Assembly (NCBI GenBank): GCA_947505915.1
Contig: CANNNH010000015.1
Coordinates: 1 to 15,868 of the forward strand
Reading direction: 5' to 3'
Length of the DNA: 15,868 bases
From: Comamonadaceae bacterium
GTDB lineage: Bacteria > Pseudomonadota > Gammaproteobacteria > Burkholderiales > Burkholderiaceae
In this document: piece by piece, positions 3,403 through 11,693 of the stretch
How positions within the stretch are numbered: the stretch's first letter is position 1
Layout: every line of letters begins with the position of its first letter
Position numbers and translations under genes: made by a program
Notes under the pieces: generated by a model
Seen by the model: the letters and a program-made list of their open reading frames with translations, nothing else
Told to the model about the DNA's origin: nothing
Database searches by the model: none

Positions 3403-3420
3403 AAACTCCGAGAACCAACA

Positions 3421-3459
3421 AAAAAGCCGCTTTGCAGGTTAATGCAAAGCGGCTTTTTA
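3421..3459 (+). terminator. strong bidirectional intrinsic terminator after motB
   Basis: A perfect 10-bp stem, GCCGCTTTGC at 3426-3435 and its complement at 3444-3453, with an 8-base loop. It is flanked by A5 on the left and T5 on the right, so it can work on both strands. It ends motAB transcription. Before the element below was inserted, it would also have lain directly behind the tRNA-Lys gene on the minus strand. Confidence 0.9.
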
Positions 3460-3466
3460 TATTCAG

Positions 3467-3512
3467 TGGTGGGACGTGCGGGGGTCGAACCCACGACAAA
3501 CGGATTAAAAGT
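3467..3512 (-). repeat. 46-bp direct repeat, distal attachment site (copy of tRNA-Lys 3' half)
   Basis: Exact 46-base match to 4784-4829, running from the CCA end of tRNA-Lys through the T-arm to the anticodon loop. Such duplication of a tRNA 3' half is the classic trace of tyrosine-recombinase integration at a tRNA gene. The sequence outside the 46 bases differs. This copy is not a functional tRNA because its 5' half is degenerate. Confidence 0.9.
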
Positions 3513-3542
3513 GCTGAACTCTATACCACTAAACGCAACACT
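3467..3542 (-). pseudogene. degenerate tRNA-Lys-like sequence
   Basis: The 3' half is identical to the intact tRNA-Lys gene. The 5' half (3513 to about 3542) can be aligned only with several gaps: GCTG, CTCTA, CC, ACT and AACG blocks occur in the same order as in 4830-4860. The anticodon stem and D-stem cannot form, so it should not give a tRNA. I infer either an old complete tRNA copy carried by the element or partial mimicry next to the crossover site; the 5' similarity could be chance. Confidence 0.5.
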
Positions 3543-3550
3543 ATCAACGT

Positions 3551-3745
3551 TTTTCAGCGTGGCTAAAAAGTGGTGTGCGAGTTTTTGCATTGCTGCAACG
3601 GCGTAAAAACTTCGCACTTTGCGTGAAGGTATTTTAACTATGCCTCTCATCCCCACCACCATCAATTTCGCAAACGCTATGTATTTCGCCACAAACCATG
3701 CGTTTTCAGCGTGATTTGCGGCTTTTACAAAACGTGGTGTGCGTA
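3551..3745. repeat. paired short repeats and hairpin in gene-free part of the element
   Basis: This is most of the gene-free stretch 3513-3777. TTTTCAGCGTG occurs at 3552-3562 and 3703-3713, each followed downstream by GTGGTGTGCG (3570-3579 and 3734-3743). The first unit forms a hairpin: 3575-3586 pairs with 3605-3617 over 12 bp with one bulged T, and the loop can pair further. The arrangement resembles recombinase arm sites or replication-type iterons, but the function is unknown. Confidence 0.5.
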
Positions 3746-3777
3746 GCAACACGCTGGCACCCCCAACACAACGCAAC

Positions 3778-4002
3778 TTAAAAGCGTTGCTGTTGTTGCT
3801 TGCGCAAGCGTTCAGCGTCACGCTGCCTGCGTTGCCTGTCGCGTTCTGCCTGTAGTTGTTGTCTGCCACGTTCAACATTGTTCTTCAGCCCTTGTATTCT
3901 TGCCTGTTCAGGCGTTAGCGGTGGCTTGGGTCTGATGGTTTTTGTGACGACTTCTTCAATACGCATCAAGTATTTACCACCACCCTGTTTATCAATAAGC
4001 AC
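3778..4002 (-). CDS. small highly charged hypothetical protein of the tRNA-Lys element
   Basis: A 74-residue product from a GTG at 4002, or 62 residues from the ATG at 3966 (MRIEEVVTKTIRPKPPLTP). After a short N-terminal part with LTPEQARIQGLK comes a long, very basic, glutamine-rich probable helix or coiled coil (ERDRQRRQRDAERLRKQQQQ). I do not recognise a named family with certainty. Short proteins of this look (TPEQ-RI-LK, then a charged helix) are familiar to me from phage-like regions, and nucleic acid binding is a guess. GGGGGTG lies 7 bases before the GTG. The GTG itself lies inside a 13-bp inverted repeat, which could hide it in RNA. It follows the 4075-4515 gene on the same strand, probably as one transcript. 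Confidence 0.55.
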   Translation of the reverse strand: MLIDKQGGGKYLMRIEEVVTKTIRPKPPLTPEQARIQGLKNNVERGRQQLQAERDRQRRQRDAERLRKQQQQRF

Positions 4003-4044
4003 GGTTTTTCACCCCCATCAACTTGCGTGGCAAAAACCGTGCTT
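3997..4044. repeat. 13-bp perfect inverted repeat between the two element genes
   Basis: AAGCACGGTTTTT at 3997-4009 and its exact complement at 4032-4044, with a 22-base loop. On the minus strand it covers the GTG start of the small downstream gene. On the plus strand it is followed by extra T bases and could act as a terminator. It may serve as a translational switch or a boundary between the two genes. Confidence 0.6.
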
Positions 4045-4074
4045 TTTAATAAACCCTACCCTTACCCCCTACTT

Positions 4075-4515
4075 TCACCTACCAAACCCATCACGCAGTT
4101 TGTTCGCCGCGTTCTCAATCGCAGTGTCCAACTCACCTGCCAACACAGCCGTTTTAATCACGTCCAACACCCCCACCAAGTCCTTTTCAGCACCCACCTC
4201 AACAGCGTGTTTGCCCTTTGCCAGTTCCAACACCTTTGTTCCGTAGCGTATTGACAGCGACAACTTGCCGTTATCAGCAACAAACCACCAAGCCTTCACT
4301 CGCTTGTTCGTTTCCACTTGCTTACGTAAGCCCGTTTCGTTGTCCGTAATGGTGCGGAATTTGGTTGCTGTGTATTGCGTCCCTGCTTGCTGTGCCTTCG
4401 CAAGTTCCATCTGTTCCCAAAGCCGTTTTGCCAACTTGTTGCGTCGTTGCTGTACTGGCAACATTTGGGTTGGTTTCTGTGCGGCTGTCAGTTTCAAAGT
4501 GCTCATCGTTGTCAT
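4075..4515 (-). CDS. conserved hypothetical protein of the tRNA-Lys element (DUF6641-like)
   Basis: A 146-residue protein from the ATG at 4515. This start is chosen because AAAGGGA lies at 4522-4528, six bases upstream; the frame is open further up but without a good site. The N-terminus STLKLTAAQKPTQMLPVQQRR is basic. A segment with TDNETGLRKQVETNKRVKAWW follows, then SIRYGTKVLELAKGKHAVEVG and a helical C-terminus ending KLRDGFGR. From memory this pattern resembles small phage-associated proteins grouped as DUF6641, whose function is unknown; I could not check this. There is no signal peptide or membrane segment. It is one of only two genes in the element. Codon and base use are more A/T-rich than in the flanking flagellar and tcdA genes. 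Confidence 0.7.
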   Translation of the reverse strand: MTTMSTLKLTAAQKPTQMLPVQQRRNKLAKRLWEQMELAKAQQAGTQYTATKFRTITDNETGLRKQVETNKRVKAWWFVADNGKLSLSIRYGTKVLELAKGKHAVEVGAEKDLVGVLDVIKTAVLAGELDTAIENAANKLRDGFGR

Positions 4516-4579
4516 TGCATTTCCCTTTCGTTTGTAGCAATGAACTAACTTTATTTTCGGTCTTCTGGTTTGAGCAACC

Positions 4580-4735
4580 ACTTTTTTGCAAAAACTTTGG
4601 CAACCAAACAAAAATCCAGTTTTTGTAGCCTGGACGGCAACCTTGGAATGTGTTTTGTCTACGTTTTAGACGCAAAAAAAGCACATGAAAAATTCAAAAA
4701 AGTATAAAACCATCGACTTCTATACTTTTAGACAT
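4580..4735. promoter_or_regulatory. palindromes and direct repeats upstream of the DUF6641-like gene
   Basis: This AT-rich gene-free stretch lies between the 4515 start and the tRNA-Lys terminator. It contains a perfect 12-base palindrome TTTTTGCAAAAA (4583-4594), a 7-bp hairpin ACAAAAA/TTTTTGT (4608-4614 with 4620-4626), and two similar units. Each unit contains TCTA, TTTTAGAC, A7 and GCAC in order, near 4657-4683 and 4719-4745. These could be operator sites, recombinase arm sites or terminator relics. No convincing sigma-70 promoter was identified. Confidence 0.4.
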
Positions 4736-4766
4736 AAAAAAAGCACTGACATCTCTGTAAGTGCTT
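4736..4766 (-). terminator. intrinsic terminator of tRNA-Lys, carried by the element
   Basis: On the minus strand AAGCACT pairs with AGTGCTT, extended after one mismatch by ACA/TGT around a GAGA tetraloop, and the stem is followed by a run of U. It lies 17 bases behind the CCA of tRNA-Lys and within the inserted element, so the element appears to bring its own terminator for the rebuilt tRNA gene. Confidence 0.85.
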
Positions 4767-4783
4767 GATTTCATTGAGGAATT

Positions 4784-4829
4784 TGGTGGGACGTGCGGGG
4801 GTCGAACCCACGACAAACGGATTAAAAGT
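4784..4829 (-). repeat. 46-bp direct repeat, proximal attachment site within tRNA-Lys
   Basis: This is the 3' half of tRNA-Lys from the anticodon loop to CCA and is identical to 3467-3512. It marks the tRNA-proximal end of the inserted element, where integration restores an intact tRNA gene. Confidence 0.9.
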
Positions 4830-4859
4830 CCGCTGCTCTACCAACTGAGCTAACGTCCC
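4784..4859 (-). tRNA. tRNA-Lys (anticodon UUU), CCA encoded
   Basis: A 76-base cloverleaf on the minus strand. The acceptor GGGACGT pairs with ACGTCCC, followed by discriminator A and an encoded CCA. The D-stem is GCTC/GAGC with AGTTGGTA in the loop. The anticodon stem GCGGA/TCCGT holds the loop CTTTTAA, so the anticodon is UUU (bases 4824-4826). The T-stem GTGGG/CCCGC contains TTCGAAC. All stems form, so it should be functional even though its 3' half is shared with the attachment repeat. It decodes AAA and AAG lysine codons. Confidence 0.97.
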
Positions 4860-4918
4860 ACTGATTCCTCTTCAATTCTTGACTTAGTTAGCGTGTACTT
4901 TACTTAGCCAAGCCTTAG

Positions 4919-4924
4919 ATTATA
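4919..4924 (-). promoter_or_regulatory. possible -10 element for tRNA-Lys
   Basis: A perfect TATAAT on the minus strand, about 60 bases upstream of the mature tRNA 5' end and next to the tcdA stop. No good -35 hexamer is visible at 16-18 bases, so this is tentative. It would give a leader of about 50 bases removed by RNase P. Confidence 0.4.
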
Positions 4925-4927
4925 GCG

Positions 4928-5755
4928 TCATTTTTTGAGACGCTGGCCACCGGAAGCAACTCTATCAAGAAGCCAGCCTGCTGCGCAGAGGCCGAATGTC
5001 GCGGTCACTGTCACGACGGATCCGTAGCCGTGGCAATTGAGGCTGCCATCGCTGGCGGCGCCCTCGCCTGCTGCAGATTCGGCTGAATCAAGCACAGCAT
5101 CGGGCTGCATCACAGGCTCGCGGCTGAACACGCAGGCCACGCCGACGCGACCTGTTCGAGAGGCACCATGTGACTTGCGCAAGCGGTAGCGCAGTTGTGC
5201 AAGCAATGGGTCGTGCGTGACCTCGGACAAATCTTCAATTTCGACACGGTGCGCGTGCCGCTTGCCGCCGGCCGCACCTGCAGCAATAAAGTGCGCACCC
5301 TGCTCAAGCGCCCAGGCGGCCATGGCGGTTTTGGCGCGCACCTGGTCACAGGCATCGAATACCGCCAGGGGCATGTCTTTGCTCAGCTGAATGCCGGCAA
5401 TTTGCGGCCAGTTGTCAGCGTCTACGAATTCGTCTACAGCATGAACCTGGCACAGTGGGTTGATCAGCGCGATACGCTGGCGCATGGCCTCCACTTTGGA
5501 CTGGCCCACACTGGGCTCAATGGCATGCACCTGCCGGTTGATGTTGGACTCGGCGATATGGTCCAGGTCAATCAGCGTGAGTCTGGCCAAGCCGCTGCGG
5601 GCCAGTGCCTCTGCCGCCCAGGAACCAACGCCACCCAAACCGACCACCACGGCGTGCGCGCTGCTAATGCGCTGTGCGCCTTGAGCGCCATACAAGCGGG
5701 CCAGACCGCTGAACCGGCGCTCAATGTCTGTAGTCTCGGGCTGGCGCCCGCTCAT
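4928..5755 (-). CDS. tcdA: tRNA threonylcarbamoyladenosine dehydratase TcdA (CsdL/YgdL)
   Basis: An E1/ThiF-like, ATP-dependent enzyme that cyclises t6A to ct6A at position 37 of ANN-decoding tRNAs. The product is 275 residues, close to the 268 of E. coli. After RRFSGLARLYG the Rossmann nucleotide loop GLGGVGSW is at residues 39-46, then LTLIDLDHIAESNINRQ. Further along are the FDACDQVRAKTAMAAW segment and a C-terminal SLNCHGYGSVVTVTATFG, a signature of TcdA. The ATG at 5755 is preferred; its first base is the last base of the upstream transporter stop, so translation is coupled. Lysine tRNAs are known t6A substrates, and a tRNA-Lys gene follows just downstream, which may be coincidence. Confidence 0.92.
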   Translation of the reverse strand: MSGRQPETTDIERRFSGLARLYGAQGAQRISSAHAVVVGLGGVGSWAAEALARSGLARLTLIDLDHIAESNINRQVHAIEPSVGQSKVEAMRQRIALINPLCQVHAVDEFVDADNWPQIAGIQLSKDMPLAVFDACDQVRAKTAMAAWALEQGAHFIAAGAAGGKRHAHRVEIEDLSEVTHDPLLAQLRYRLRKSHGASRTGRVGVACVFSREPVMQPDAVLDSAESAAGEGAASDGSLNCHGYGSVVTVTATFGLCAAGWLLDRVASGGQRLKK

Positions 5756-9860: not shown

Positions 9861-11693
9861 TTGGTTTCCTTTTTTATAAGCGCCTGGCTTTTGACTAAAC
9901 CTTCAACACCGCTTCAGACCCCTCTTCTGCGCAGCGCCAGCCTGCGCAGCAGTTTTAAAAGACTCTGGCCTTTTTTCAGTGCGTCTAAGTCAGGCTGGGC
10001 AGTGGCCATCGCAGCAACCGTGCTGGGTTCAGCGACTGAGCCGATGGTGCCGGCCTTGCTCAAGCCTTTGCTGGACCGCGGTTTCAAAGCAGACGGCAAC
10101 TTAGACATCTGGCTGGTCCCCTTTTTCCTGATGCTGCTGTTTGGTGCGCGTGGCTTGACGGCCTTTGTCGCCCAGTTCGGGCTGGCCAGGGTCACCAACC
10201 TGGGCTTGCAAAAACTGCGTGCAGCCATGTTTGACAAGCTGCTGAGTGCCAAGCTGGCGCTGTTCACCGATGAAAGCTCCAGCGCCATTGCCAACACGGT
10301 GGTGTACGAAGTGCAAAACGGCTCGCACCTGCTGGTCAACGCCGTCATGCGGCTGGCCCGCGATGTGTTAAGCGTGCTTGCACTCGTGGCCTACCTGCTC
10401 TACCTCAACTGGAAACTGACGCTGGTGGTCGGGCTGATGTTTCCGGCAGTTATCGTCGTTGTGCGTGTGCTGTCCAAACGACTTTACCGGCTGACCAAAG
10501 AAAGCCAGCGTGCCACCGACGAATTGGCCTATGTGGTCGAAGAAAACGTCCTGGCGCACCGGGACGTGCGGCTTCACGGAGCGCAGACTGTGCAAGCCGG
10601 GCGTTTTCATCTGCTCAGCGTTTCATTGCGCAACCTGTCGATGAAGTCAACTGTCACGCATGCCGGTATGAGCGCATTGACTCAGTTGATGGCGGCCGCA
10701 GCACTGTCGGCCGTGATTTCGATTGCCTTGATTCAAAGTGCCCAGGGCGCCACCACAGTAGGCAGCTTTGTGGCCTTCATCACCGCCATGCTGCTCTTGA
10801 TTGCGCCCATCAAAAGTCTGTCGGATGCGGCCACGCCGATCACGCGCGGCCTGGCTGCACTGGAGCGCGGCGTGCATTTGCTGGATTTGATCGAAGACGA
10901 AAGCAGCGGCAGTTTCAAGCTGGCGCGGGCCTCAGGCGATATCCGCTTTGAAGGCGTCACCCTGCGCTACAAGGACGATGCCGCAGCGGCGCTGGATGAG
11001 ATCAGCCTGCGCGTTCAACCTGGCGAAACGGTGGCCATAGTCGGCACCTCCGGCTCAGGAAAAAGCTCTTTGGTTAACTTGCTGCCGCGCTTTAGAGACC
11101 CTAATGCGGGTCAGATCCTGCTCGATGGAATTCCTCTGCAAGACTGGAACCTGGGTTCATTGCGATCGCAAATTGCATTTGTCAGCCAGCACGTAGTGAT
11201 GCTCAATGACTCCATTGCCAGTAATGTCGCACTCGGTCAGCAGCTAGACCGCCAGAAGGTGATCACTTGCCTGCAAGCGGCCAACCTCGAAAAATTCATT
11301 GCTGAATTGCCGCAAGGCATAGACACCTTATTGGGTCACAACGCCATGCAGTTGTCGGGCGGACAAAGGCAAAGGCTGGCCATCGCCCGTGCGCTGTACA
11401 AGGATGCGCCGATTTTGATTCTGGACGAGGCCACCTCGGCTTTGGACACAGAGTCAGAGCAGGCTGTGCAACAAGCGATTGAGCGTCTTACATTGAGCCG
11501 GACATCGCTGATCATTGCGCACCGCTTGTCAACCATCCAACACGCTGACCGCATCCTCATGCTCGATGGCGGCCGTTTGATTGAGTCCGGCACGCACGCT
11601 CAGTTGCTGGCTCAGGGCGGCGCTTACAGCCATCTTTACAAGCTGGGCTTTAACAACGATGACTCAAAAAGTCAAAGCAACACAATGTCGTAG
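9861..11693 (+). CDS. msbA: lipid A export ATP-binding/permease protein MsbA
   Basis: Homodimeric ABC flippase that moves lipid A-core across the inner membrane. The product is up to 610 residues. Six TM helices occupy roughly residues 45-345. The ATPase domain has Walker A GTSGSGKSS (about 394-402), the signature LSGGQRQRLAIARAL (about 498) and Walker B ILILDEATSALD (about 515-526), followed by the H-loop IIAHRLSTIQHADRI. The start is uncertain: the only candidates near the N-terminus are TTG codons (9861 or 9891), neither with a good Shine-Dalgarno, and the first in-frame ATG (about residue 62) lies within the transmembrane domain. The 3' end overlaps the convergent rng gene by 22 bp. MsbA is favoured over other exporters by length and style. 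Confidence 0.88.
   Translation: MVSFFISAWLLTKPSTPLQTPLLRSASLRSSFKRLWPFFSASKSGWAVAIAATVLGSATEPMVPALLKPLLDRGFKADGNLDIWLVPFFLMLLFGARGLTAFVAQFGLARVTNLGLQKLRAAMFDKLLSAKLALFTDESSSAIANTVVYEVQNGSHLLVNAVMRLARDVLSVLALVAYLLYLNWKLTLVVGLMFPAVIVVVRVLSKRLYRLTKESQRATDELAYVVEENVLAHRDVRLHGAQTVQAGRFHLLSVSLRNLSMKSTVTHAGMSALTQLMAAAALSAVISIALIQSAQGATTVGSFVAFITAMLLLIAPIKSLSDAATPITRGLAALERGVHLLDLIEDESSGSFKLARASGDIRFEGVTLRYKDDAAAALDEISLRVQPGETVAIVGTSGSGKSSLVNLLPRFRDPNAGQILLDGIPLQDWNLGSLRSQIAFVSQHVVMLNDSIASNVALGQQLDRQKVITCLQAANLEKFIAELPQGIDTLLGHNAMQLSGGQRQRLAIARALYKDAPILILDEATSALDTESEQAVQQAIERLTLSRTSLIIAHRLSTIQHADRILMLDGGRLIESGTHAQLLAQGGAYSHLYKLGFNNDDSKSQSNTMS

Follow-up and report, generated by a model that had tools for sequence, protein, structure and literature searches.

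An integrase-less 1.3-kb unit at a Comamonadaceae tRNA-Lys gene as a probable decayed, CIME-like derivative of DUF6641 two-recombinase islands

The 1.3-kb unit adjoining the tRNA-Lys(UUU) gene of a Comamonadaceae bacterium is probably (at a rough probability of 0.8) a decayed, integrase-less, CIME-like derivative of islands of 6–11 kb that occupy tRNA 3' halves by means of a tyrosine integrase whose gene lies beside the tRNA. The analysis concerned a stretch of 15,868 nucleotides, in the following called the window, which was compared with loci (L) and genomes (G) of relatives. The coordinates of the relevant features are given in Table 1.

Table 1. Features of the 1.3-kb unit and its borders (positions refer to the window)
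Feature	Position	Strand	Evidence
Terminator-bearing native 3' flank of tRNA-Lys, now lying beyond attR; in G764 and G765 the equivalent sequence immediately adjoins the intact tRNA	3406..3466	.	
46-bp repeat, displaced copy (core of attR)	3467..3512	.	
Island right end with conserved blocks 3631–3648, 3572–3579 and 3555–3562 (CCACGCTG, putative integrase arm site)	3513..3648	-	Alignment of nine right ends including that of the window
Small basic ORF, ~62 aa, homologous to the C-terminal portion of o123, the last gene of L021	3778..3966	-	
Long hairpin between DUF6641 and small ORF, 23-nt arms	3987..4054	.	Also in integrase-bearing islands
Intact DUF6641 gene encoding 146 aa, of which 97% are identical to L021	4075..4515	-	Pfam
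Start of island homology: DUF6641 upstream region	4506..4632	-	
Junction segment with part of a second terminator-region copy	4633..4697	-	0/2000 first-order Markov resamples reach the score
Host-type tRNA terminator region adjoining the tRNA	4698..4783	-	tRNA-Lys loci of congeners
46-bp repeat, tRNA-side copy (core of attL), tRNA nt 31–76	4784..4829	.	
tRNA-Lys(UUU), intact	4784..4859	-	ARAGORN; Rfam RF00005, 71.5 bits

A single tRNA was returned by ARAGORN for the window, and the final 46 of its 76 nucleotides were found to recur with exact identity at the far end of the unit, at a spacing of 1317 bp; stretching the repeat pair to 57 nt lowered the identity to 91%. A repeat that is exact over 46 nt and stops precisely where the tRNA ends is clearly no chance occurrence, and the perfect repeats and intact tRNA-Lys(UUU) reported in the initial annotation were confirmed in position and identity. 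Recent insertion, or selection on the site, had been read from the perfection of the repeats; exact tRNA repeats of 40–49 nt are the rule among ten complete related islands, so that perfection alone is weak evidence of recency. The GC content of the unit is 0.459 versus 0.574 and 0.584 on its two sides. Searching the window against Rfam gave three matches at E ≤ 0.1, none of which except the tRNA was above the gathering score.

The description of the unit as carrying two small genes and no recombinase proved correct. One gene encodes DUF6641 (PF20346, 46.1 bits against a cut-off of 27); the other is the small basic ORF, which spans 3778–4002 and encodes 62 aa if started from 3966, the probable start. 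Among six ORFs of the unit no recombinase family was matched in Pfam, and neither these six in Pfam nor three of the ORFs in PHROGs revealed any recombination or transfer gene. Within the window, a tyrosine integrase beside the tRNA and a second, catalytic-domain-only recombinase were both without a match. Phage satellites of the PICI or P4 type are recognised by genes such as AlpA, primase/replication, terminase and capsid-size genes; none of these was found in the scanned ORFs of the unit (Pfam, PHROGs) or in the nine ORFs of L021, a parent-type island. Comparing the DUF6641 gene with that of L021 revealed 16 synonymous and 6 non-synonymous codons (dN 0.020, dS 0.196, dN/dS ~0.10), which points to a gene under constraint, though much of this constraint may predate the deletion. 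The hairpin between the two genes, a probable bidirectional terminator, stands 3' of DUF6641 in the window (3997–4044), L021 (10472–10519), L022, L023, L027 and L029; in L021 (8059–8106), L022, L029 and L031 it is present once more, after o206. Integron attC sites have an orientation pattern with which the hairpin was compared; the orientation of its ends does not match, and an attC-like nature was rejected.

The parent-type island L021 was found in Limnohabitans sp. B9-3, where 6.3 kb are inserted at the same tRNA-Lys gene between 46-bp repeats at 4886–4931 and 11177–11222. Its right end matches the window at 90.3% (3467–3939) and 93.8% identity (3977–4632), whereas the alignable host DNA of the two is only 68.0% identical over 3.5 kb; from this disparity we infer a recent horizontal transfer. 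Besides DUF6641, L021 encodes a 421-aa tyrosine integrase adjoining the tRNA and, on the opposite strand, a second recombinase of 194 aa with little beyond the catalytic domain. The unit shares with it the tRNA-Lys target, the kind of 46-bp repeat, a homologous DUF6641 gene, the hairpin, the small ORF and the right end, whereas the window is without the integrase, the cargo, the second recombinase, a non-coding block, o119 and the island-type left end. Conjugation, relaxase, capsid or known satellite families were not detected in the nine ORFs of L021 using Pfam, PHROGs and NCBIfam, searches which diverged relaxases could escape.

The second recombinase of L021 gave weak NCBIfam matches to FimB-type invertases, which are of about the same size. 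Its reading as part of an invertible switch was rejected; a search of four islands for inverted repeats flanking the second recombinase together with the neighbouring non-coding block gave only one pair, of 21 nt and 76% identity, in L022. This block separates the second recombinase from o119 by ~800 bp in which no gene is convincing (L021 8720–9518); equivalents occur in L022, L027, L028, L029 and L031, the longer aligned pieces being 66–82% identical even between islands that occupy different tRNAs, and it is a possible origin, packaging or regulatory site.

Within the nearest genus, empty sites were found in two of 87 genomes, G764 and G765; in both, sequence closely resembling the far flank of the window begins immediately after an intact tRNA-Lys. 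The matches amount to 93.3% over 105 columns and 91.7% over 108, respectively, including the identical 46 tRNA nucleotides; by subtraction, the flank without its tRNA part is ~88% and ~86% identical. On the other side of the tRNA, both genomes carry the same genes as the window, at 70–71% identity over 4.9 kb. The empty-site call was based on these two genomes, and weaker matches to the far-flank query in G013 (82% over most of it) and in G034, G768, G014, G737 and G745 (71–74%) were left out. Because the intact tRNA directly meets the flank in G764 and G765, the far flank is the native tRNA-Lys flank, which the unit parts from the tRNA. Judged from these alignments, the locus is of the integration type, which predicts just such a separation. 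Tyrosine-recombinase-type integration at the tRNA-Lys 3' half had been proposed in the initial annotation, along with a comparison to sites lacking the unit; it is supported by both empty sites and by the integrase-bearing island at the same tRNA in L021. The nearest relative by locus sequence, G031 (94% over 8.2 kb), is without the unit there, and its contig ends ~1 kb past the tRNA.

At the tRNA-proximal (left) end, the homology to L021 stops at window position 4632; o119, a divergent gene that is lost from the unit, has its start codon 6 bp away (L021 9884 versus 9878). Missing tRNA-ward of this point are o119, the ~800-bp non-coding block, the second recombinase, the cargo and the integrase. 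By sequence similarity, the left end is host-type DNA rather than island-like: 4698–4859 is 92% identical to the tRNA-Lys locus of G770, and 4730–4859 is 90–93% identical to those of G006, G028, G760 and G752, the tRNA being included in both cases, and subtracting it leaves roughly 80–87% for the flank in these five of the 87 genomes. A search of the examined tRNA-Lys flanks of the five congeners gave no relative of the island integrase, and inspection by eye of the ORFs listed for them revealed no obvious tyrosine integrase; G770 has two resolvase-like ORFs. Similar terminators lie 3' of tRNA-Val (eight) and tRNA-Asn (one) at nine other loci picked from the same flank search.

One internal deletion should leave island DNA by the tRNA, so that the resemblance of 4698–4783 (or 4730–4783) to the flanks of congeners counts against a derivation from the larger islands; since the tRNA-proximal end is host-type terminator DNA, the unit is not the outcome of one clean internal deletion. 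The initial annotation had considered a deletion product of a larger phage or island as its second alternative, and had named a larger island with the unit as its random deletion as evidence against its reading. The second alternative is supported and such an island was largely what was found, the unit corresponding to the right end of a B9-3-type island, but the host-type left end speaks against a single clean deletion. The left end could have arisen from a fragment that reached from the DUF6641 end across att into the neighbouring host flank, closed on itself and re-integrated, or from a rearrangement.

Taken further, a rearrangement might explain the whole locus: the tRNA and its native terminator (4698–4859) would never have been interrupted, and a deletion or translocation would have brought in the right junction of an island at another tRNA-Lys copy, in the order DUF6641 – right end – att – flank – motB. 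The five congeners without an island whose flanks resemble the tRNA-proximal flank (5/87) fit this reading, as do the terminators following tRNA-Val and tRNA-Asn in the genus and the position of motB, which is not beside tRNA-Lys in the relatives examined; six motB loci (L050–L055, with short flanks partly cut by contig ends) contained no tRNA, and motB was not found beside the tRNA of L134 and L135, which also counts against the favoured derivation. We consider it unlikely, however, as in G764 and G765 tRNA-Lys runs straight into the far-flank counterpart and has the same genes on its opposite side, as integration predicts, and as it requires a second tRNA-Lys(UUU) locus, of which there is no sign here. 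An assembly artefact, in which the 46-bp repeat would have let the assembler join an island right end to two tRNA-Lys flanks, while the actual genome might have an empty site together with a distinct molecule that may be circular, is highly improbable: a contig of G010 does end inside the same tRNA, but 46 bp is below the read lengths common today, and the homology to G770 is unbroken from 4698 through the tRNA.

For the favoured derivation from a larger island, the ancestral layout would have been tRNA – integrase – cargo – second recombinase – non-coding block – o119 – DUF6641 – small ORF – att. Deletion would have taken everything left of the DUF6641 promoter and spared the right end, which comprises DUF6641, the hairpin, the small ORF and the right arm and is bounded, as a remnant, by two perfect cores. 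With the left end swapped for host-type tRNA-terminator DNA containing a partial second copy, the left arm site would be gone; carriage would still be possible if a related island integrated beside the unit.

In the integrase-bearing relatives, the 8-mer CTACGCTG was present, with at most one mismatch, in 8/8 left ends and 8/9 right ends. None of 200 mononucleotide shuffles gave an 8-mer with at least four G/C that reached 8/8, a comparison that overstates the significance because the ends are related. The window has the motif in its right end (3555–3562), and it is absent from the left end. A further 8-mer, GGGTGTTT, occurs in all eight left ends and five of the nine right ends, and in neither end of the window. 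Six of ten right ends, including that of the window, have CMACGCTG with no more than one mismatch at a distance of ~48 bp from the core; it was not found in the two left ends of L166. Provided that the CTACGCTG block is an integrase arm site, the missing left motif would preclude efficient excision even with an integrase in trans; the unit alone is probably immobile, and is expected to be a poor substrate even when the cognate integrase is supplied.

These ends also bear on the suggestion in the initial annotation of a minimal satellite mobilised in trans, that is, a complete, MITE-like 1317-bp unit moved by an integrase that a co-resident DUF6641 island supplies and that acts on both cores and the right arm. 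Perfect cores, a conserved right end and an intact DUF6641 gene with the low dN/dS versus L021 would agree with it, as would the recent horizontal arrival suggested by 90–94% versus 68% host identity; tandem islands exist (L166, L177/L179), so that related integrases meet such sites. G031 also carries, away from its tRNA-Lys locus (L139 3602–10214, contig 6), a diverged DUF6641 gene (40–42% identity) and a second-recombinase homologue, with no integrase or tRNA within the 14 kb examined. We nevertheless regard such a satellite as quite improbable: the left end is without the motif of 8/8 integrase-bearing left ends, the coding content is that of the right end of larger islands, the dN/dS value may predate the deletion, and the loci examined, where a further occurrence of the unit had been proposed to be sought, revealed no second copy of it.

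The island family was surveyed starting from a DUF6641 protein search, which gave ten loci in genome contigs and one in IMG/VR. Profiles built from island genes were used to scan 57 loci, or 56 without L175, which duplicates L021; L177 and L179 overlap, many loci are shortened by contig ends, and those from which the profiles were built match by construction. The complete layout of tRNA – integrase – second recombinase – DUF6641 – displaced tRNA copy was present in 10/56 loci, in islands of roughly 6–11 kb at tRNA-Lys (L021, L160, L176), tRNA-Met (L022), tRNA-Phe (L027, L028, L031, L166) and tRNA-Pro (L137, L145). For the 34 of 60 DUF6641 hits flanked on each side by 7 kb or more, a second recombinase was found within 10 kb in 29 and an integrase in 24; the four with neither (L030, L136, L150, L157) had no tRNA in view. 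No other integrase-less unit with tRNA repeats was seen among the surveyed loci (n = 1).

DUF6641 was detected in 11/300 genomes of the order, 13/399 of the family (12 above the cut-off) and 7/87 of the genus by protein search, the last with at best 60–61% identity to the window, two of the seven having an internal stop and one being partial. One query gave 3014 DUF6641-related proteins at E ≤ 0.001. Using tblastn, no DUF6641 match was obtained in 50,697 phage records; 72,556 plasmid records gave six, all below 60% identity, one of which extends over at least 80% of the query. IMG/VR was scanned twice, both times yielding the same single contig, L031, which carries a complete island. A phage origin of the unit was rejected given these phage and IMG/VR results. 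Past the island, L031 (8233–15193) has ORFs that by eye resemble phage tail genes, and the island may lie next to a prophage.

In L166 (1897–19802, G613), two 8.9-kb islands with 99.5% identity over 8.95 kb are stacked in tandem at tRNA-Phe, each with an integrase, second recombinase, o119 and DUF6641, and with a 45-bp tRNA copy between them. Three DUF6641 genes, each near integrase and second-recombinase matches, lie within ~15 kb in L177/L179 (G518 contig 7, ~108.6–123.2 kb), an array with no tRNA in view. L029 has a second integrase-like stretch, split by a stop, just beyond its island. A PADLOC defence scan of ten proteins (nine cargo proteins from five islands and the DUF6641 of the window) left eight without a match; an AAA ATPase of L027 matched best to TRIP13 (E 2.8e-6), and a borderline match to PtuA was obtained in L031 (E 0.0073).

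Other elements were observed at tRNA-Lys. Between the tRNA and a displaced tRNA copy, L116 (4617–15268, G724) holds 10.6 kb with phage-like ORFs and L115 (3876–8575, G761) 4.6 kb with an integrase-like ORF, both recognised by eye; neither element matched the DUF6641 island genes. The tRNA-Lys copies or flanks in L114 (~1213), L117 (~8862), L001, L006 and L120 have a different terminator, most with nearby TGTAG-type direct repeats, which suggests another element family at the same tRNA-Lys.

Measured against the island family, the unit retains the 46-bp repeat of the tRNA 3' half at the far end and the tRNA-distal DUF6641 gene and small basic ORF; the tyrosine integrase by the tRNA and the second recombinase are absent, and CTACGCTG, a feature of both ends, is present at the right only. 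Among known systems, the derivatives of streptococcal ICEs and IMEs termed CIMEs are characterised, in the sections consulted of PMC5704250 and PMC7563491, by the loss of integration and transfer genes and the retention of attL and attR. The latter source, in the part concerned, gives 1.2–13 kb for classical CIMEs and counts 215 CIMEs at a tRNA-Lys gene in Streptococcus agalactiae. In these terms, the unit resembles CIMEs in its att cores at both ends, its lack of recombination genes and its apparent origin by deletion, and shares with some of them a tRNA-Lys location (PMC7563491). It differs in that its parent-type island has no conjugation or relaxase family in nine scanned ORFs and that the left arm-like motif is missing while both cores are perfect; an accretion partner is not visible in the window. 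Because no relaxase-bearing parent points to ICE or IME parentage and the left arm-like motif is missing, the unit is better called CIME-like than a strict member. The islands catalogued by Islander likewise have their ends marked by a tDNA and a displaced tDNA fragment, and the filters given in the consulted part of that description reject candidates that are integrase-less or below 2 kb (PMC4383910), on account of which the unit would be missed. Among the matches listed from the open-access literature, neither DUF6641 nor the DUF6641 two-recombinase island family is described. That the parents form an undescribed Burkholderiales class of small, tandem-stacking tRNA islands, with a tRNA integrase, a catalytic-domain-only recombinase and DUF6641 as hallmark, of which the unit is the smallest derivative, moving in trans and with DUF6641 aiding recombination or transfer, is as a whole very unlikely.

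The stump itself amounts to ordinary decay, and illustrates one route by which these islands decay; catalogues that demand an integrase or at least 2 kb overlook such remnants. The more interesting result is the parent DUF6641 two-recombinase family, which is widespread and apparently unnamed, and which combines a recurrent two-recombinase backbone with cargo that varies, insertion at several tRNAs and stacking in tandem. As a marker, DUF6641 could help to find such islands.
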